From a virus: a stretch of 61,309 nucleotides of DNA. Location: the IMG/VR virus record IMGVR_UViG_3300025154_000095, positions 1-61,309 of that record; one strand, written 5' to 3'. This document shows positions 168-16,435 of the stretch, piece by piece (position 1 is the first letter of the stretch; each line of letters opens with the position of its first letter). The notes under the pieces are model-generated. The model was not told where the DNA came from and ran no database searches. It saw only the letters and a program-made list of their open reading frames with translations. The position numbers were made by a program, and so were the translations under genes.

Positions 168-1409
168 TCTTTGCCCTGAAGCCTGGTAGTAATAATCTTT
201 ATACAAATTACTGCTCACATCCACAGGCATTTCTACCATCGGATTGGCTGGATCAAATCCCATGTATTTTACGTATCCGTTCGCGTCCTCATTCACGTAC
301 CCCATCTTCTCATACGGAGCTGCAAAAACATTGCTGGCATAATCATTTGCATCTTTGCAAAACCATCCCTGGTAGTCATTAATGTTGTACCCATCCACAA
401 ATTGCCAGACATTCCCATACAAATTTTCGATCCCTCGATAATGAAACGGATTTTTACCGTTCGTATTATTCGCCAGTGATCCAGACGTTGCGGAAATTCC
501 GGAACTAAATCCAGATTTCCAGCCTACGTTATAAAGATAATTTCCAATGGAAGCATTGAACGCTGCCCCATCAACGGTTATGGTCGTGCTACCAGCACCT
601 GGTGTGTCAACATCAATCTGCGTAATGTTACGGCCATAAAACACCTGATTACCACCCTGTGTCGATCCTAGTCCAACGGGTTGCCCAACGGCAAATTTAG
701 CACCCGACACATTAGCTACAACAATTGTGTTAGCTGCTGCTGTATCCGCTGTCAATACTTCTGTCGCTGCATAAGTTCCACTTGTCCACCCAGCCATAAT
801 CGCCTGGCTATTCAGCGTCGCAAACTCAACCGTGAACAAAACCTGGAGCATATCATACACGTGAATGTCTAATTGCTGATACCCAGTACCGTTGGCTTCT
901 GCGTAGGTTCTAAATTCGACGATGTTCTTGTTTATCAATGGATATTCGTTCGGCAAGCTGTTTAACTTCGTACCACCCGTCAGGGTCGTGCCTGCAGGAT
1001 ACTTTCCAACATAAACCTTATCTAACCTAGCACCGGTTGAAAAATTGTAGCACGCCCACGGCCAATATGAATTTGGCATTCTCGCCTTACATATCTGTCT
1101 TATAAGGTGTGTGCCTGTGTCAACTTTACGAATCCAAAATCCTGGAACTGAAATAAACTCGTTGCTGTCAGCGTCCGTGTAAGTGTCAAACTCTGAATAG
1201 ATAGAAGCGGTATCAAAATCGTTGGTTACACTAGAGGCGTCAACACCGGCCTCAGCTGTCATACCTACGCTCGCATTTATACGAGTTACAGAACCATCAC
1301 TTTTGTCGATCTTTACACCATAAACCGCTTCGCCTGCGTAGGTTGTCTGGATTTCATTGATTCGTTTGCCGCCGAACAATAACATTATCTTTTGTGATGC
1401 ACTATTCAT
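45..1409 (-). CDS. DGR-type variable receptor-binding protein, copy 1
   Basis: A 454-residue protein expected on the virion surface for host recognition. The C-terminal half has a formylglycine-generating-enzyme/C-type-lectin look, with a GNVWQFVDG motif near residue 339 and a Gly/Trp/Tyr-rich end closing in GGRLCKKG. That fold is the usual target of diversity-generating retroelements. A paralogue of identical length sits at 39745-41109; the two agree through most of the protein but differ at scattered codons over the last 40 residues. The gene follows a holin-like pair, with a GGGGAGAGGAG ribosome site. The family is recognised by eye; the exact receptor is unknown. Confidence 0.75.
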   Translation of the reverse strand: MNSASQKIMLLFGGKRINEIQTTYAGEAVYGVKIDKSDGSVTRINASVGMTAEAGVDASSVTNDFDTASIYSEFDTYTDADSNEFISVPGFWIRKVDTGTHLIRQICKARMPNSYWPWACYNFSTGARLDKVYVGKYPAGTTLTGGTKLNSLPNEYPLINKNIVEFRTYAEANGTGYQQLDIHVYDMLQVLFTVEFATLNSQAIMAGWTSGTYAATEVLTADTAAANTIVVANVSGAKFAVGQPVGLGSTQGGNQVFYGRNITQIDVDTPGAGSTTITVDGAAFNASIGNYLYNVGWKSGFSSGISATSGSLANNTNGKNPFHYRGIENLYGNVWQFVDGYNINDYQGWFCKDANDYASNVFAAPYEKMGYVNEDANGYVKYMGFDPANPMVEMPVDVSSNLYKDYYYQASGQRIAFVGGSWLYGGSAGLWHWYLFNSSAVAYASIGGRLCKKG

Positions 1410-4766: not shown

Positions 4767-5584
4767 TTTAGCTCCTCAAATAACGTAACTTGATTTGTCT
4801 GTTTTTTAATTAAGGTGGTCGAATAACCATTTGTTTTTATTTCGTTTCTAACAGTAGTACATTGATTAATCCATTTTTCAGCATCTCTGTAAAATTGTTT
4901 ATTGATTTCAAAACCATAAGCACGTCGCCCTAAGTTTTCAGCCGCAACCAAGGTACTTCCGCTGCCAGCAACTGGATCAATAACTACATCGCCTTCGTCT
5001 GTAAAAATGCTTATAAGTTTTTCAAGTAGTTTTACTGGCTTTTGTGTCGGGTGAATTTTTTCAAATAAATAATCCTTATCATCTTCCCAATCCATAACGT
5101 TGAAAATCATTTTTCCATTGTTTCTAAACTTTGGCAGTTTTTCGCGGTATAAAATCAACCCATATTCAGCGTTGCCAACTACTCGCATATTAGCCTTCAA
5201 TACTTGGGCTGAAAAGTTTTTCCTAAAAACAAGGTTTATATAATTATTGATACCGTATTTTTTAGCAAGTTCAATCAGATCCATTTGTTGATCAAACGCA
5301 CAAAATATAATCATGCATGGTGCTTCGTTGCGTTCCTTTGGTTCTTTTCTCATTAGCTTACTGCAAAAGTGCATAAATTCAGCAGGCTTGAAATAATCGT
5401 CTGAATTGAAAAATGATTTTCCTGCCAAATTACTTTCACCATTTTTATTGTCACCTCCAACATACCATGAAGGATTTGAACCATAGGCGTTTATTCCGAT
5501 GTTGTAAGGAATATCAGCAATAACCAATTGCGCCGGTGGAATATGATAGCCTTTAAAATTCTGAAAGTGGTCATTTATCAACAT
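4763..5584 (-). CDS. DNA methyltransferase (N4/N6-type)
   Basis: 273 residues, beta-class order. The catalytic motif IV comes first (ADIPYNIG near residue 25; the usual DPPY has Ile in place of the first Pro). The S-adenosylmethionine motif comes late (DPVAGSGSTLVAAE near 205), preceded by HPTQKPVKLLE. Target could be adenine-N6 or cytosine-N4. Such phage enzymes protect DNA from restriction. It sits in the replication operon, overlapped by the next upstream gene by 14 bases. Confidence 0.85.
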   Translation of the reverse strand: MLINDHFQNFKGYHIPPAQLVIADIPYNIGINAYGSNPSWYVGGDNKNGESNLAGKSFFNSDDYFKPAEFMHFCSKLMRKEPKERNEAPCMIIFCAFDQQMDLIELAKKYGINNYINLVFRKNFSAQVLKANMRVVGNAEYGLILYREKLPKFRNNGKMIFNVMDWEDDKDYLFEKIHPTQKPVKLLEKLISIFTDEGDVVIDPVAGSGSTLVAAENLGRRAYGFEINKQFYRDAEKWINQCTTVRNEIKTNGYSTTLIKKQTNQVTLFEELK

Positions 5585-5792
5585 TGTCGCTTCCCCTTTT
5601 CATCCGTTTCAGCATCTCGTCACGTTGCAACAGTAGCATCGTCCGCTCTTGTCGCAGTTGGTCAATTTCATCACACATCTTGATAATTAAACAATCGGAG
5701 TGTGCCTGCCAACAACCTTCCCAGTGTTGTCCAAGATGGCAAAAAAACTCATAATCGTGTCGTATCATTTTTGTGTTTATTAAGCCTGTCAT
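5571..5792 (-). CDS. Hypothetical coiled-coil protein
   Basis: 73 residues. The second half (EIDQLRQERTMLLLQRDEML) is a heptad-like helix. Overlaps the genes on both sides. Not recognised. Confidence 0.5.
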   Translation of the reverse strand: MTGLINTKMIRHDYEFFCHLGQHWEGCWQAHSDCLIIKMCDEIDQLRQERTMLLLQRDEMLKRMKRGSDNVDK

Positions 5793-5944
5793 CCCGTCCT
5801 CCGATACCGTCGTTTCAACCCGTCCAGCAACGCCAGCTTGATCTTCACCCGGTCGCGGTTGCGTTGGGTGTCAGCCTGCTTCCATTCGCGCACGGCCTTT
5901 TTGTATTCCAATTCGGCTTGTTGTCGTGCTTGCCAATAAGTCAT
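5789..5944 (-). CDS. Small basic helical protein
   Basis: 51 residues starting MTYWQARQQAELEYKKAV, rich in Lys/Arg/Gln, probably one long helix. A GAGAGGAG site stands 6 bases before the ATG, and the stop overlaps the next start as ATGA. Not recognised. Confidence 0.55.
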   Translation of the reverse strand: MTYWQARQQAELEYKKAVREWKQADTQRNRDRVKIKLALLDGLKRRYRRTG

Positions 5945-5945
5945 C

Positions 5946-6965
5946 TTATGCTCCTCTCTCTAAATCGCCAACCCGAAAATATTCAGGTTGCATAATCTGT
6001 TTGAATACACCAGTAGATCCCATTGTGTTTTTATCCACCAGAACATCGACAATATTTGAATATCCGTTCTCTATCCTGTCACGTCGTAACAATACCACCA
6101 GGTTTGACTTATCGCTTTTTTCACCGGCACCCCTGACACTGGTTCGATCAACATTTTCAAATGATGTCTGCTTGCCTTCTTTACTCATTTGTGCGACCAT
6201 CAATACTGGAATGCCCGTCATCTCCGCAAACGTCTTTATCTGCTCCACGTTGTCGGCTTCACGCTGATAAGTATTGGTACCGAACATCTGCAATTGCCGC
6301 TTTGAAGCAGACGCCTTTTCGAGGTAATCCAATACCACTACATCGCATTCATCCTCATTGACTAATCGCCGTAGTTCTGTAATAGTTCGCTCCATAGTCC
6401 AGCCCGGGGTGTGGAGGTAGGAAATATACCCTTCCCATTTCAGCAAGCGCGGCTTCACTTCGTCGATCTTTTGTTTCTGCAATATATTCAGCTTGCCGCT
6501 TTTTATATCCCTGGGTGTAATACCAGTATGACGCGATGTTCTCCGTAGCATCATTAGTTTGCGGTTTAACTCGTAGTGGACGAACACAACCCGGTTTTTA
6601 TGTGCCGCCCAATGTTCAGCGATTGATTCAGCATAGATGGTTTTTCCGGCACCGTCTGGAGCTGTAACCAGTCCTAGCATCCCGTCCTCAAGTGGATCTA
6701 TAATATTATTCCAGGATTGCCATGGCCATGATAAATCGCGTCGTAGACTCTCGGGCGTGTTGGCTATCTTTTCGTAGTCCTCAATAATCTTACTGGTAAA
6801 ATCGAACGAATCAACCCACTTCAAAATAGCGTCCTCTTCGCCAGCTCCCATGCGTGCTAACATTTCAGATAACCAGCGACGCAATTCTTCTGGTTCGTCC
6901 TCTGCCATGCACCGTCGTAATAATTCTTTAGCTAATACTTCGTATTGTACGATTTCAGGATTCAT
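5946..6965 (-). CDS. Replicative DNA helicase, DnaB-type (SF4)
   Basis: About 339 residues from MNPEI; this start overlaps the initiator stop as ATGA. Walker A reads APDGAGKTIYAE and Walker B VVVLDYLEK, followed by VLMVAQMSKEG and RGAGEKSDKSNLV, the RecA-fold motifs H2 to H4 of DnaB. The N-terminal 90 residues are not the full DnaB N-domain. It should unwind the fork at the phage origin with the initiator encoded just upstream. Confidence 0.85.
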   Translation of the reverse strand: MNPEIVQYEVLAKELLRRCMAEDEPEELRRWLSEMLARMGAGEEDAILKWVDSFDFTSKIIEDYEKIANTPESLRRDLSWPWQSWNNIIDPLEDGMLGLVTAPDGAGKTIYAESIAEHWAAHKNRVVFVHYELNRKLMMLRRTSRHTGITPRDIKSGKLNILQKQKIDEVKPRLLKWEGYISYLHTPGWTMERTITELRRLVNEDECDVVVLDYLEKASASKRQLQMFGTNTYQREADNVEQIKTFAEMTGIPVLMVAQMSKEGKQTSFENVDRTSVRGAGEKSDKSNLVVLLRRDRIENGYSNIVDVLVDKNTMGSTGVFKQIMQPEYFRVGDLERGA

Positions 6966-7774
6966 GTTTGTACATCCTCTATTCCACCGCCCCATACTCT
7001 AAAATCACCCTTTAGAATTTCGCGGTTCATTGGTTTTTGTTTTTCTCGTTCTGATTTATATTGATATATTTTATCCACTGTTTGCTGTAGTGTTGGAGGT
7101 TCATTCTTTTGACCACGAAAATCATTTTTATACCACCATGACTCAAACCCTTTCAAATCATCTATTGTATATTCAGCTTTTATAAGTATCTTTGCAGTTT
7201 TACCAATTTGTCCTGCTTTTAATTTCATATCCAGTTTGCACATTTCTGCCAGTGCTCCAAAATAAATTTGATGTTCGGGAACTTTGTCTTTAAGTATGTC
7301 TTTAACCTGTCTTTTGTTGTTACCTGTTTGTGTAACACCTCTGTTACCTGCTTTGGTTACAGTGCTGTTACCTGCTTTGGTTACAGTTACCTGCTTTGGT
7401 AACACTTCATTTTTATTGAATCTATTTCCTCTTTCAGCATCGGATTCTATCCCGATCCATTGTTCTATGTATTTATTAAATCCGTAAGTTGGTATTTGGC
7501 CTTTGTCTAATCTCTTATAAATTATCTTTTTTTCAATCAATGATTTCAATGGTTTTAATACATGTTGTCTTTTGCTATCGGTTCCCTCTGCCCACTGGCT
7601 TAAACTTATAATATCCTCCTTTTTATTCCAGCCGTATGTTTTTCTGAATAAAAATAAAACACAGCGAAACTCTGCACCAGATAGCCTTGCCTTCGATAAT
7701 GCATCGAATATTGCATTATGAACCCTGGTAAACTCGCCTTGTTCTATTTGAATGTCGTTTCCGTTGGTTGCCAT
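6962..7774 (-). CDS. Replication initiator, phage O-like
   Basis: 270 residues. The N-terminal 100 residues match the winged-helix Phage_rep_O pattern (FTRVHNAIFDAL, AEFRCVLFLFRKTYGW). A linker with repeated VTKAGN units follows and is encoded by DNA direct repeats at 7318-7404 that resemble iterons. As in lambda gene O, the origin may lie within the gene. The C-terminal part probably contacts the helicase encoded next. Confidence 0.8.
   Translation of the reverse strand: MATNGNDIQIEQGEFTRVHNAIFDALSKARLSGAEFRCVLFLFRKTYGWNKKEDIISLSQWAEGTDSKRQHVLKPLKSLIEKKIIYKRLDKGQIPTYGFNKYIEQWIGIESDAERGNRFNKNEVLPKQVTVTKAGNSTVTKAGNRGVTQTGNNKRQVKDILKDKVPEHQIYFGALAEMCKLDMKLKAGQIGKTAKILIKAEYTIDDLKGFESWWYKNDFRGQKNEPPTLQQTVDKIYQYKSEREKQKPMNREILKGDFRVWGGGIEDVQT
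7318..7404. repeat. Iteron-like repeats, candidate replication origin
   Basis: Four related units starting GTTACCTG and ending in GTAACA or GTTACAG lie at 7318-7336, 7342-7362, 7366-7386 and 7386-7404. Two are identical over 21 bases. They are imperfect palindromes and lie inside the O-like gene, the lambda ori arrangement. Confidence 0.6.
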
Positions 7775-7794
7775 TGTTTCTCCGTGTGTTTTAT

Positions 7795-7903
7795 AAAAAA
7801 ACCACTTTGGGGTTGTGTCCGTGTCCGCAAGTGCTATCCAAGTGTAGCATTACACAGACACACCCTAAAGTGGTCTACTTGGATCATATTACAGCTTGCG
7901 GAC
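7795..7903 (-). promoter_or_regulatory. Attenuator or pseudoknot RNA before the initiator gene
   Basis: Read on the minus strand the order is A (GTCCGCAAG, 7895-7903), B (ATCCAAGTAG, 7875-7884), C (starts ACCACTTTAGGG, 7852-7874), B' (CTACACTTGGAT, 7836-7847), A' (CTTGCGGAC, 7823-7831), C' (7801-7824) and seven T. A pairs A' and B pairs B' with C in their loop. C also pairs C' over about 23 bp to make a Rho-independent terminator. The two states are alternatives, or form a pseudoknot together. It lies in the leader of the initiator gene. Confidence 0.7.
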
Positions 7904-7936
7904 TGTGTTTGTTATATCTCATATTATACAACCTTT

Positions 7937-8821
7937 TTATTGAATGTCAAGAGATTCATGTGATTTGACCCAGCCAAATCTTTTGGCAATGCTGAACAAT
8001 GTCGCAATCGTTACCGCTCCGCCTTCACTACCTTTGTCATGGAATGATTTCCATTTTCGCTCCACTTCGCCCTGCTTACCATCCGCCCAACTTTCAGCCA
8101 GATTATAACCAGCGTCTCCAAATTCAGAATGAATACCCATTAGCACTTGAACCCATTCGTCATAAGCAATGCCCCATGGTGGGATCAACCGCAAGGCGTC
8201 CTGTACCTCTTTTTGTGAAGCAGGTGCCAGATAGTTTTTTCTAACCGTCAACCGTCGCTCATTGTCCCCACTGTCTTTATAGTTCTGGATGATTTTCTTT
8301 ATAACATCAAGCGGTAACACCTGATTGATCTTGTAAAACTCGCACCCCTGGGAACCGTAGAAAAATCGGACGGCATCTTTACATTGTCGATCAGCGGTGC
8401 CAAACAGCCACAACAAAGCACTGGCAGCCATTGTGTAATTCTTGGCCTGCATGATGGGTTGATCCAGGAGAAAGATCACTCGTGACCTGGGTTCTTCCGG
8501 CTTATGGCTTATGGTGGTGTACAAAAATGACGCATATTTGGCTATAAACTTATCGCGTGATAATTGCTCAAGTGAGCTGCTTTTATCACCGGTATCGAAG
8601 TCCAGTCCAATGTGTTGACCACAAATATAATTCTCGGATGTTCTCCAATTATTCTTGTGTTGGGTTGTAATGGATCTACCCAGGTAGATGGCAGCCATGA
8701 TATTTTTTTGCTCAAGCTCAAAGTTGACGAATGACGCGTTAAACTTTGACCACAAATCCGAACCCTGGGGAATTTTCTTATCCAGCTTAAAACTCGATAC
8801 CGCTATTTTGTAGATCATCAT
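7937..8821 (-). CDS. Primase-like protein with PriCT-2 domain
   Basis: 294 residues. The N-terminal part has a GLDFDTG acid pair and FLYTTISHKPEEPRSRVIFLL, the style of archaeo-eukaryotic primase-related phage proteins. The last 85 residues (SQKEVQDALRLIPP to IAKRFGW) fit the PriCT_2 domain. It overlaps the HNH gene upstream by 35 bases and precedes the attenuator-like element. Primer synthesis at the phage fork is inferred. Confidence 0.65.
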   Translation of the reverse strand: MMIYKIAVSSFKLDKKIPQGSDLWSKFNASFVNFELEQKNIMAAIYLGRSITTQHKNNWRTSENYICGQHIGLDFDTGDKSSSLEQLSRDKFIAKYASFLYTTISHKPEEPRSRVIFLLDQPIMQAKNYTMAASALLWLFGTADRQCKDAVRFFYGSQGCEFYKINQVLPLDVIKKIIQNYKDSGDNERRLTVRKNYLAPASQKEVQDALRLIPPWGIAYDEWVQVLMGIHSEFGDAGYNLAESWADGKQGEVERKWKSFHDKGSEGGAVTIATLFSIAKRFGWVKSHESLDIQ

Positions 8822-9158
8822 TATCCTCGTGTATTTCTACGTCGTGAAATTTTGCATGACACTTCCGACATAATACAATCAAATCAAGATCATCCTCAAG
8901 TAAAAATCTAATGTAAGTATTATGGTGTGTATGCAGGGTTGTATCATTTCCTTTTCGATTGCACAACTGGCACCGATAACCAACTCTATTTTTTGCCTGC
9001 TTTGATTTTTCTTTCCATTCATCTGACCTGTAATATTCTTCTTTTGTTGGTAGCAAGTCTTTTGATTCTTGATATTCTTGTAATTCAACCCTTTTTATTC
9101 TTTGTGGTATGCAATATTCTATTATTGCCGTTATCAAACTATCAGCATAATCAGACAT
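8787..9158 (-). CDS. HNH endonuclease
   Basis: 123 residues. Contains CQLCNRKG, LHTHHNTY and VLCRKCHAKFHD: the two CxxC zinc knuckles and the His pair of a compact HNH domain at residues 60-115. The N-terminal half is charged. In phage early operons such proteins are homing or packaging-associated nucleases; here it lies between a regulator and a primase. Confidence 0.8.
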   Translation of the reverse strand: MSDYADSLITAIIEYCIPQRIKRVELQEYQESKDLLPTKEEYYRSDEWKEKSKQAKNRVGYRCQLCNRKGNDTTLHTHHNTYIRFLLEDDLDLIVLCRKCHAKFHDVEIHEDNDDLQNSGIEF

Positions 9159-9369
9159 TATCTACCATCAACTTTCCGATCTTGTCTGATAAATCCCCTT
9201 CATATTTACCCTGGTGAACCTTTGCCAGGTTGATAAGCTGGTGAACGCGCTGCTTACTGATACCCAGGGTTTCACCTATTTTCTGGTATGTCATGCCACT
9301 TTTACGCAGCTTCAATACCATTACCCACTGCAATTCATTACGTAACTTTTTACCGCGATCTTTTATCAT
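9151..9369 (-). CDS. Sigma-70 region-4-like HTH regulator
   Basis: 72 residues with MTYQKIGETLGISKQRVHQL, a near-canonical region-4 helix-turn-helix. First gene of the leftward operon, directly behind its own promoter in a divergent control region. Likely a small transcription regulator of the early switch. Confidence 0.7.
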   Translation of the reverse strand: MIKDRGKKLRNELQWVMVLKLRKSGMTYQKIGETLGISKQRVHQLINLAKVHQGKYEGDLSDKIGKLMVDNV

Positions 9370-9387
9370 AATGCCTCCGTTTATATA

Positions 9388-9415
9388 ATAATACCACTTT
9401 ATAACAAAAAGTCAA
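9388..9415 (-). promoter_or_regulatory. Leftward early promoter
   Basis: On the minus strand TTGACT (9410-9415), 16-base spacer, TATTAT (9388-9393), just ahead of the HTH gene. It is back-to-back with the rightward promoter; the two -35 boxes are 17 bases apart and form the inverted repeat GTCAAG/CTTGAC, a natural operator position. Confidence 0.75.
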
Positions 9416-9432
9416 GCAATTGTTAAAAACCC

Positions 9433-9460
9433 TTGACTTTTATAAAATAGGTTGTATAAT
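9433..9460 (+). promoter_or_regulatory. Rightward early promoter
   Basis: TTGACT (9433-9438), 16-base spacer, TATAAT (9455-9460). The first gene begins at 9494 with a GGAGG site. Drives the plus-strand operon that ends at the terminator at 15491-15525. Confidence 0.85.
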
Positions 9461-9493
9461 CTATATAAGTTAGAAATTATTTGGAGGTATAAC

Positions 9494-9796
9494 ATGAAAC
9501 AGATCACAGCGAAATACCACAACAGTATAGTCCAGGTGGACAGTATCAGCCACATGCCCGGGCGCGTAAACATCCACACCATCGACGGCACGAGGCCTTT
9601 CAGCCGCTACTTCTGGGGAGCAGGTGCGGCACCCGATGACAGTGGAACCGTGTTCGTGGACAGCCTGACAGACATCAAGGTCGAATGGTTGCCGGAAGAT
9701 GACCCGTTCGAACCGACTGACCCGCCTATTGAATGGCAGTATGACGAAGGACACGAATACCTGATGGAATGTGAATCATTGCGGAGAGGTGGATAA
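9494..9796 (+). CDS. Hypothetical protein, first rightward early gene
   Basis: 100 residues from MKQITAKYHN, preceded by TTGGAGG; the longer in-frame reading would begin inside the promoter. The C-terminal 30 residues are acidic (EDDPFEPTDPP). Higher GC than its neighbours. As the first-transcribed gene it may be a host-takeover protein, but nothing identifies it. Confidence 0.6.
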   Translation: MKQITAKYHNSIVQVDSISHMPGRVNIHTIDGTRPFSRYFWGAGAAPDDSGTVFVDSLTDIKVEWLPEDDPFEPTDPPIEWQYDEGHEYLMECESLRRGG

Positions 9797-9797
9797 C

Positions 9798-9890
9798 ATG
9801 ACCCTGCTTCAGATCCTATTCGGTGGCGTGGCGATCATAACGGTGCTGACAGTGCTCAGCGTAATTGGATATTTACGGAGGATGAAATGA
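9798..9890 (+). CDS. Single-span small membrane protein
   Basis: 30 residues, MTLLQILFGG to YLRRMK, one hydrophobic helix with a basic end. It overlaps the next start as ATGA, and its ribosome site follows the previous stop. Function unknown. Confidence 0.45.
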   Translation: MTLLQILFGGVAIITVLTVLSVIGYLRRMK

Positions 9891-10171
9891 ACGAGGAACA
9901 AAAACAAAAAGAAGAATTGATGGCATATAGTGATAAGGAATTGAGAGCAGAATTACAGCGTAGGGAGGAAGAAATAAGGAAAAAAACAAAACCAAAAACA
10001 CTAACTGGAATAGACTGGGAAGAATTAATAGACATTTGCGAAAAGTATATTGACGACCTTGACAAACAGGGTTGGGTTGATGATGACATGTATCATTATA
10101 TTTTCGAGACAGCAATAGAAACAGTGTATGGTAAACCCATTTGGGCGTGGATACGGGAGAAAAAGAAATGA
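9887..10171 (+). CDS. Hypothetical charged helical protein
   Basis: 94 residues. The N-terminal half is a Lys/Glu helix (KELRAELQRREEEIRKK); the rest is acidic with several aromatic residues. ATGA-coupled to the upstream membrane peptide. Not recognised. Confidence 0.55.
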   Translation: MNEEQKQKEELMAYSDKELRAELQRREEEIRKKTKPKTLTGIDWEELIDICEKYIDDLDKQGWVDDDMYHYIFETAIETVYGKPIWAWIREKKK

Positions 10172-10497
10172 ACGTGTTGAAGATCGTGGTGGATAAATTA
10201 CCGGAGAAATGTGTATATTGTGATATTCCTTTTTTACTTTGTAAAGCAATGACAGATAATGAATCAGTTTCTAATCAAATATTGTTAGACATGGCAACCC
10301 GCCCCACCTGGTGCCCCCTGGTTGTCGAGGTTCAAGAAGTGTGCGAGTGGAAGCACAATAAACACGAAGGTGACAATGATTTTCAGATTCCACAATATGA
10401 CAATAAACACGGTGTTAGCTGGTGGGATTCAGTAAAGCACCAATTTGTTTTCTGCCCACATTGCGGCAAGCCTATCAAGTACATCGAATCCGAATAA
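10168..10497 (+). CDS. Cys-rich zinc-binding small protein, family member 2
   Basis: 109 residues from MNVLKIVVDKLPEKC, with TWCPLV in the middle and a terminal zinc ribbon half CPHCGKPIKYIE. The same three blocks occur in the product at 51676-51999, and the first two at 3106-3378. Probably a zinc-ribbon protein of phage early operons; partner unknown. Confidence 0.65.
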   Translation: MNVLKIVVDKLPEKCVYCDIPFLLCKAMTDNESVSNQILLDMATRPTWCPLVVEVQEVCEWKHNKHEGDNDFQIPQYDNKHGVSWWDSVKHQFVFCPHCGKPIKYIESE

Positions 10498-10575
10498 ATA
10501 GAACACTTGTATCTATTATTGTGATATGGAATCTGCTATTATGGATACAAGAACGAACAACAAACAGGAGTAATC

Positions 10576-10770
10576 ATGAGTAATATGAATGAAAAAAAAT
10601 ATCACATTGACAACATACCGGCAAGCGCGATTGATATTATTGAAAAAGCTCGATCGTATTCAGAAGAATTTAGTAGCGGTGATTTTTTCTTTACCAGCGT
10701 AGCAGCAAATATTTTAAGAGAACATGGTCATACGGTTGGTGAATTAAAAGAGGAGCACCAATGCCAGTAG
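10576..10770 (+). CDS. Hypothetical protein
   Basis: 64 residues with a CAGGAG ribosome site. The central part (SAIDIIEKARSYSEEF) is helical. It follows a 78-base gap that holds a possible TATTAT box but no convincing -35. Not recognised. Confidence 0.5.
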   Translation: MSNMNEKKYHIDNIPASAIDIIEKARSYSEEFSSGDFFFTSVAANILREHGHTVGELKEEHQCQ

Positions 10771-10850
10771 AAATCATAATCATGTTTATAGCAGTGTTCG
10801 GAACCACCGCCATAATGGCGAAATTATCAGATATGTTAGCGAAGGAGTAG
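10761..10850 (+). CDS. Single-span small membrane protein
   Basis: 29 residues, MPVEIIIMFIAVFGTTAIM then a short polar tail. Overlaps the preceding gene by 10 bases with AGGAG upstream. Function unknown. Confidence 0.4.
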   Translation: MPVEIIIMFIAVFGTTAIMAKLSDMLAKE

Positions 10851-10852
10851 AG

Positions 10853-11923
10853 ATGGAAAAATCAGAATTAGCAGTATCAGAACAAAAGAGCTCGCTAATA
10901 ATGCGTGCTCAAGAACAAATGGAAATAGCCAAACGGCTTATTGTAAACGGTAAAAAATTGCAAGATGACGAAGTGCGAGCACTGGCAGTATATACCGCCC
11001 AAACAGGATTAAATATATCCATGAATGAATGTTATTACATGCCCGGAACCGGCCCGATACCGGGCATTGCAGGCATACGCAGACTTGCAAAAGAAGCAGC
11101 CATGGCAGAGGCAAATGACGCAAAATATCGACTGGTTGGCAAGGGTTACAGACTGGAATTTGTATCAGGCGAAAATAACAAACTTGAAGCGGTTTATGAT
11201 ACCAAGAAAAACGACATTGCTTATGAATGTATTTTGACCAGCGATATGGACGAAGCGTTCTGGCTCAATAAATTGTTTTCGGTAATGGACAAGTTTTCAG
11301 CTTACAAATTAGACTTTTCAGACGCGAAACAAAAAGCCATTGAATTGATAGGCGATTGCCCGAAAATATCCTATGTAGGCGTAGTTTATGGATCTGAAGT
11401 TTTTAGCTACAATGGCAAGCCAGAAAAAATGGATCGACACGAACGGGCAAAGAAACGAGCTGAAAAAGGCGCGCTCAAGAAAAGATTTGCCCTCCAAATC
11501 AATGTTGAATTTGAAGAACCGGAAGAATTTATTGAAATGGAAATTCTAAACGGAAATGGCAACACTCCATTATTAGACAATTCAAACAAAACAACGAACG
11601 AGCTTATTTCAGAACTTGGGTTTGAAGTAGATCCAGAAAATCAGGCACCCAAACCCCTGGAATGGTTCGACGAACCAGAATCCATGGTAGAAGCCGCTGT
11701 TGAGTTGGGCGGGCAGGTGAAATCCAGCATGAGCCTTGAAACAGCGGAGGCCGTGACCAATAAAGACGGTGTGCGTTACGGTGACATTGACACAAAGACA
11801 TTATCCCACATGGGGAACGCAATCACCAAAGCCATGGAAAAGAACGGCATGAGCCACGAGAAACACGAAGAACACCAATTGAAGCTGGACGCAATCAAGG
11901 TGATATTAGAATCACGACAATAA
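10853..11923 (+). CDS. RecT-like single-strand annealing protein (probable)
   Basis: 356 residues. The first 200 residues follow the RecT/Bet style: a helical opening, a TAQTGLNISMNECYYMPG segment and the signature RAKKRAEKGALKKRF near residue 205, where RecT proteins have KRAEAHALRKAF-type motifs. The C-terminal 120 residues are acidic and variable. It would anneal ssDNA in phage recombination. No exonuclease partner is adjacent; the nuclease-like protein at 3375-4013 is a candidate. Confidence 0.5.
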   Translation: MEKSELAVSEQKSSLIMRAQEQMEIAKRLIVNGKKLQDDEVRALAVYTAQTGLNISMNECYYMPGTGPIPGIAGIRRLAKEAAMAEANDAKYRLVGKGYRLEFVSGENNKLEAVYDTKKNDIAYECILTSDMDEAFWLNKLFSVMDKFSAYKLDFSDAKQKAIELIGDCPKISYVGVVYGSEVFSYNGKPEKMDRHERAKKRAEKGALKKRFALQINVEFEEPEEFIEMEILNGNGNTPLLDNSNKTTNELISELGFEVDPENQAPKPLEWFDEPESMVEAAVELGGQVKSSMSLETAEAVTNKDGVRYGDIDTKTLSHMGNAITKAMEKNGMSHEKHEEHQLKLDAIKVILESRQ

Positions 11924-16363: not shown

Positions 16364-16435
16364 AGCCAACAAGTAGACTTGAACTACTAACCAGTCGCTT
16401 ACAGGGCGACCGCTCTACCATTGAGCTATGCTGGC
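16364..16435 (-). tRNA. tRNA-Thr (TGT)
   Basis: Full cloverleaf on the minus strand: acceptor GCCAGCA/TGTTGGC (one G-U pair), D stem GCTC/GAGC, anticodon stem GTCGC/GCGAC with loop CCTGTAA, 5-base variable loop, T arm AGTAG-TTCAAGT-CTACT. Position 33 is C rather than the near-universal T. No CCA is encoded. It heads the large structured RNA region. Confidence 0.85.

Follow-up and report, generated by a model that had tools for sequence, protein, structure and literature searches.

A probable cis-acting attenuator in front of phage replication genes

In a 61,309-nt stretch of viral DNA (IMG/VR virus record IMGVR_UViG_3300025154_000095, here called the window), the minus-strand leader of the rep_O and helicase genes is probably a cis-acting transcription attenuator built from two crossing helices, in which an early A/B helix would act as the antiterminator. 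Judged from sequence and predicted folding, it looks like one instance of an on/off device that recurs before the replication genes of about 20 unrelated uncultured phages and has not been described.

The leader is preceded by a sigma70-type promoter (7923-7950, minus strand) with TTGACA at 7950-7945, a 16-nt spacer, and TATAAT at 7928-7923; it matches the consensus at 12/12 positions, is the top-scoring site in a promoter scan of 5500-11500, and would place the transcription start at about 7917-7915 (~7916). A primase-like gene (7937-8821, minus strand) overlaps this promoter with its 3′ end. Downstream, and also on the minus strand, are a Shine-Dalgarno-like GGAG read from the sequence (7780-7783) and, with its ATG at 7774, a gene for a 270-amino-acid replication initiation protein of the Phage_rep_O family (6962-7774; PF04492, E 3e-21; phrog_2365, E 1.6e-26), the end of which is overlapped by a DnaB-type replicative helicase gene (5946-6995, minus strand; PF03796, E 4.6e-25). 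A first-pass annotation of this DNA had proposed that the structure controls these genes, and it does lie between a strong promoter and the initiator and helicase genes.

The leader segments follow the promoter in the order A-B-C-B′-A′-C′-T7 (7903-7795, all minus strand), and are themselves followed by the Shine-Dalgarno sequence and the Phage_rep_O gene. Segment A (GTCCGCAAG, 7895-7903, about +13 to +21) has nine perfect pairs with A′ (CTTGCGGAC, 7823-7831), and segment B (ATCCAAGT, 7877-7884) has eight with B′ (ACTTGGAT, 7836-7843). Segment C (GACCACTTTAGGGTGTGTCTGTGT, 7852-7875) is the 5′ arm of a putative intrinsic terminator whose 3′ arm, C′ (ACACGGACACAACCCCAAAGTGGT, 7800-7824), reaches the T7 run (7795-7801); the C/C′ helix is long and interrupted. 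A′ directly precedes C′, and its last 2 nt are shared with C′. The three complementary pairs of the first-pass annotation are all present, in this geometry and at the coordinates it gave, and C lies in the loop of the A/B helix while also pairing with C′, as it had claimed; we refine the description only in that B belongs to the crossing helix too, such that the loop holding C is closed by a two-part A+B helix.

Two side observations concern the surrounding region. Within the rep gene, window 7319-7409 has four iteron-like repeats at 7319, 7343, 7367, and 7386 (GTTACCTGCTTTGGTTAC and variants), resembling the lambda origin inside gene O. Strong promoter-like sites stand back to back at 9388-9460 (minus strand 9415-9388, plus strand 9433-9460), a possible early control region separating divergent gene blocks.

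Chance tests, folding, and a proposed mechanism

The summed score of the helices was reached by 2 of 3,000 dinucleotide shuffles in which the T run was held fixed, and the whole leader folds better than its shuffles (z −3.9), as do its halves folded alone (z −4.1 and z −6.6). When the whole window was scanned, no other match combined nine perfect A/A′ pairs with a T7 tract and a promoter upstream. A simple terminator scanner missed the terminator because its loop is longer than 8 nt. We also folded truncated transcripts in a nested, equilibrium model that gives exclusivity and order, not rates or pseudoknots: up to +110, the probability of A/A′ is 0.98-0.99 and that of B/B′ is 0.85, and once C′ emerges both fall to about 0 and C/C′ rises to 0.66 and then to 0.97. 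The alternative folds, predicted in the first-pass annotation to be either mutually exclusive or pseudoknotted, thus appear in these ensembles as exclusive early and late folds.

Two hallmarks of an attenuator are found in the leader. Between promoter and gene there is a predicted stable hairpin with a U run behind it (the segment from C to C′-T7, folded alone, reaches −36.9 kcal/mol, z −6.6), and the truncated-transcript ensembles contain a mutually exclusive alternative fold. The complementary segments also have the crossing order A-C-A′-C′ of an H-type pseudoknot. Because the folding programs used score neither pseudoknots nor kinetics, we infer the sign of the switch.

A and B are transcribed first, and sequence and folding indicate that A′ and B′ can pair with them on emergence, catching C in the loop; C′ comes directly after A′, and C/C′ with T7 is predicted to be the more stable final fold, in the form of an intrinsic terminator. 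We propose that the early A/B helix is an antiterminator that would confine C to a closed loop for as long as the polymerase still holds C′; the long C/C′ helix would then be unable to wind fast, and some polymerases would read through into rep. Where A is unavailable, or the polymerase waits long enough for refolding, C/C′ would form and transcription would stop. After release, the free 5′ end could pair with A′ and yield a pseudoknotted, end-sealed RNA.

Conservation among close relatives

The close family comprises three distinct leaders: that of the window, that shared by L003 and L004, and that of L005. All three agree at every one of the 94 nt running from start site to A′, where about 9-11 changes are expected (P(0) ~1e-4); between the same loci the upstream gene differs by ~8% and rep by ~6%. 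This perfect identity could stem in part from recent exchange. The C′ of the relatives differs at two points, an A to G change giving a U.G pair and the loss of one bulged C, and pairing is kept. A pattern search with the leader C′ returned a single match, a near-identical contig. The first-pass annotation had staked its proposal on complementarity being conserved in relatives, and here it held: A, B, and C are unchanged in the close ones, and distant phages show the same topology built from other sequences, with compensatory changes.

The crossed topology recurs in other rep_O leaders

Relatives of the rep_O N-terminus were gathered from viral contigs and genomes, giving 176 distinct leaders. 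These were searched for a C/C′ stem with a T run, plus a helix joining a segment upstream of C to a segment of the C/C′ loop; the loop-side arm had to lie within 15 nt of C′, and a crossing helix with an energy of −18 or lower was counted as strong. A strong A/A′ helix crossing a terminator occurs in 22 of the 176 leaders, to which the strict class is limited; at the same energy, shuffles yield 0.4 such leaders and downstream windows of the same loci 0.26 (scaled). The complementary strand of these leaders gave four matches, as expected of inverted repeats read backwards. Strong crossing helices (≤−18) form in 47% of cases with a leader's own loop versus 1.5% with the loop swapped between loci. 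The arm sequences are unrelated between loci and the order of the segments is preserved, with a median A′-C′ distance of 6 nt. Throughout the class, C/C′ has only a modest advantage over A/A′ (median 3.7 kcal/mol), with values scattering widely and some helices imperfectly specified.

One pair of loci, L051 and L259, have leaders that are 74% identical over 125 nt and Rep proteins that are only 41% identical in their N-terminal part, which suggests exchange of, or constraint on, the leader as a module. Double compensatory changes are found at two pairs of A/A′ and three of C/C′ and, together with two single changes that keep pairing, leave none of the 24 pairs broken. A DNA motif search built from this pair found the two loci themselves and one chance match, and nothing further.

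The geometry of the class bears on an alternative in which A/A′ (with B/B′) and C/C′ coexist as a pseudoknot, with better termination and a sealed 5′ end; the product would be a stable RNA of ~120 nt, and rep would be expressed by leak-through. Because A′ directly adjoins C′, the helices could stack; L1, with a median of 28 nt, is long enough in most loci, and A usually begins near +1, which puts it close to the free 5′ end in many loci, with C′ coming right after A′. Coexistence would, however, require two long helices to be threaded, A is ~13 nt from the 5′ end in the window, and the 2-nt overlap of C′ and A′ there implies partial competition, and we consider this reading doubtful. U runs in L1 were noticed by eye, not in every locus.

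No convincing member of the class was found among prophage loci in genomes. Nor is there such a leader in the annotated isolated phages examined (Caldibacillus CBP1, Brevibacillus Jimmer1, Geobacillus GBK2, Psychrobacillus Spoks, Bacillus SDFMU_Pfc, and Acinetobacter Ab105-3phi), in which annotated genes ~20 nt or less from rep leave no room for one; Paraburkholderia IPK has no annotation. Absence from these isolates may be the reason why the device lacks a description.

Promoters and leader reading frames in the relatives

A sense promoter is present in the 60 nt upstream of A in 16 of 26 strong members, compared with 2.8 expected. In 11 of the 26, an ATG is located 5-8 nt past the −10 hexamer, that is, at +1, and within or at the edge of A (p ~2e-6, binomial, the chance rate being assumed to be 0.08). 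Read in the frame of the ATG near A, 17 of 25 leaders stay open as far as C′, compared with three and two in the other two frames (5/50; p ~5e-7). These leader open reading frames (ORFs) run for 32-44 codons through the terminator, and most stop between −13 and +11 nt from the rep start. In many relatives, then, a leaderless ORF would cross the device, and a ribosome could occupy A and C.

Such ORFs recall pyrBI-type attenuation, with which the leaders share a promoter, a leader, an intrinsic terminator, and a regulated gene and, in many relatives, an ORF that crosses the terminator and ends at the start of the next gene. A ribosome starting at the +1 AUG would trail the polymerase through A, C, A′, and C′, prevent the terminator from forming, and hand over to the rep start; in an untranslated transcript the structure would close over the AUG and transcription would stop. 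There is precedent in the pyr leader, where coupled translation of a leader ORF suppresses the terminator (PMC5021804, PMC4824070), and a ribosome close to a terminator represses it, although it is rare for a ribosome to reach a polymerase that has not paused in the first ~100 bp (PMC4824070). The leaders described here differ in having a crossing A/A′ helix with A near +1, and a leaderless AUG rather than a Shine-Dalgarno start. The window has no ORF spanning the terminator at all: none of its three frames stays open across C′, and its single internal AUG reading frame, MIQVDHFRVCLCNATLG, has no Shine-Dalgarno sequence and ends in B′. Strong members L125, L262, L333, L251, and L016 also lack a leader ORF. 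We regard a pyrBI-type device as improbable, and it is disfavored for the window.

The crossing helices are the shared feature of the class, and the putative leaderless ORF is the mark of a subclass. Returning to the attenuator with crossing helices, no signal acting on it was found for the window; since no leader ORF is present there, its setting may be constant or respond to some other factor. Tentatively, the leaders may belong to a widespread, undescribed class of phage cis-RNAs in which the transcript's own 5′ end serves as the outer arm, and only a free 5′ end can thread and close the structure; in the subclass, a leaderless +1 AUG within the arm would sense 70S initiation and tie replication to translation capacity, and the class would extend to genes other than rep. 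If real, it would mean that many uncultured phages control the start of replication by an RNA architecture hidden from sequence-based RNA searches, because the topology is kept while the letters change. Attenuators would also gain a design that enlists the 5′ end of the transcript they control, and one could test directly whether ribosome availability and replication are coupled in phages.

Comparison with known RNA systems

Rfam searches gave a tRNA as the only match at the gathering score in the whole window (16364-16435, minus strand), only sub-threshold microRNA hairpins besides it, and no match in 20 related loci, which agrees with the earlier remark that the structure fits no known riboswitch. 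We found no description of a crossed-helix rep leader in the literature, in which subscription journals were thinly covered. The leader would work like an attenuator, and its architecture, as far as could be tested, appears not to be that of a named family. Overall, the first-pass interpretation stood in its geometry, its exclusive folds, its position, and its lack of an Rfam family; it did not foresee membership of a class, the placement of A near +1, or the leader ORFs of the relatives. The H-type pseudoknot riboswitches (preQ1-I and fluoride) similarly couple crossing helices to an intrinsic terminator, but the class described here has no conserved ligand-pocket sequence or Rfam match, and its arms vary freely between loci.

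Plasmids pT181 and pIP501 carry antisense attenuators in which a pre-emptor pairs with a terminator arm and an antisense RNA decides the outcome; as here, the terminator is in the leader of a replication initiator gene and helices compete. In phage P4 immunity (CI RNA), and with C4-type phage RNAs, transcription stops early in the leader of a phage replication operon, as is predicted for our leader. By analogy, a counter-transcript or the terminated leader, which could itself act in trans, might bind nascent A or C and force termination; the target would again be a replication initiator gene, and the arms change rapidly between phages, as they do in antisense systems. However, A in our leader pairs inside the terminator loop, and antisense promoters from C to rep+30 occur at the chance level (2 versus 2.1 expected, in a consensus scan that misses non-consensus ones), with none listed on the plus strand in the window leader in the consensus scan. 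No trans-acting copy was found in the window, which elsewhere matches the leader over at most 12 exact nt, or 17 nt with mismatches, in a record that is possibly incomplete; there is also no Rfam match, to C4 or otherwise. Antisense or trans-RNA control thus seems very unlikely.

A DNA-level operator or cruciform is less likely, because the change in C′ gives a U.G pair that exists only in RNA, the T run is strand specific, and the promoter puts A near the transcript start. A plain terminator of the upstream gene was rejected, as the terminator is downstream of the 12/12 promoter, which itself overlaps the end of that gene, and so was a type III toxin-antitoxin pseudoknot RNA, given that there are no tandem repeats and the downstream gene is rep.

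Candidate crossed leaders before genes other than rep

A scan of the sequence flanking these leaders gave 30 matches away from rep, most of which look like chance or iteron arrays; five are convincing by eye (L085, L132, L139, L316, and L061), and the occurrence of crossed leaders before genes other than rep is a lead drawn from these candidates. L132 has a second crossed-helix leader (~700-830, minus strand) preceding a gene for an 85-amino-acid protein of unknown function, and its leader ORF, which has a Shine-Dalgarno start, crosses the terminator and continues in frame into that gene. In L316 a crossed-helix leader (~915-1044) lies right behind a TTGACA/TATGGT promoter, before an HNH-type gene rather than rep. 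The remaining three are strong candidates: in L085 (~494-603) the T run ends in ATG, L061 (~1101-1188) is on the minus strand, and L139 (~878-1007) has an excisionase-like gene some distance downstream.
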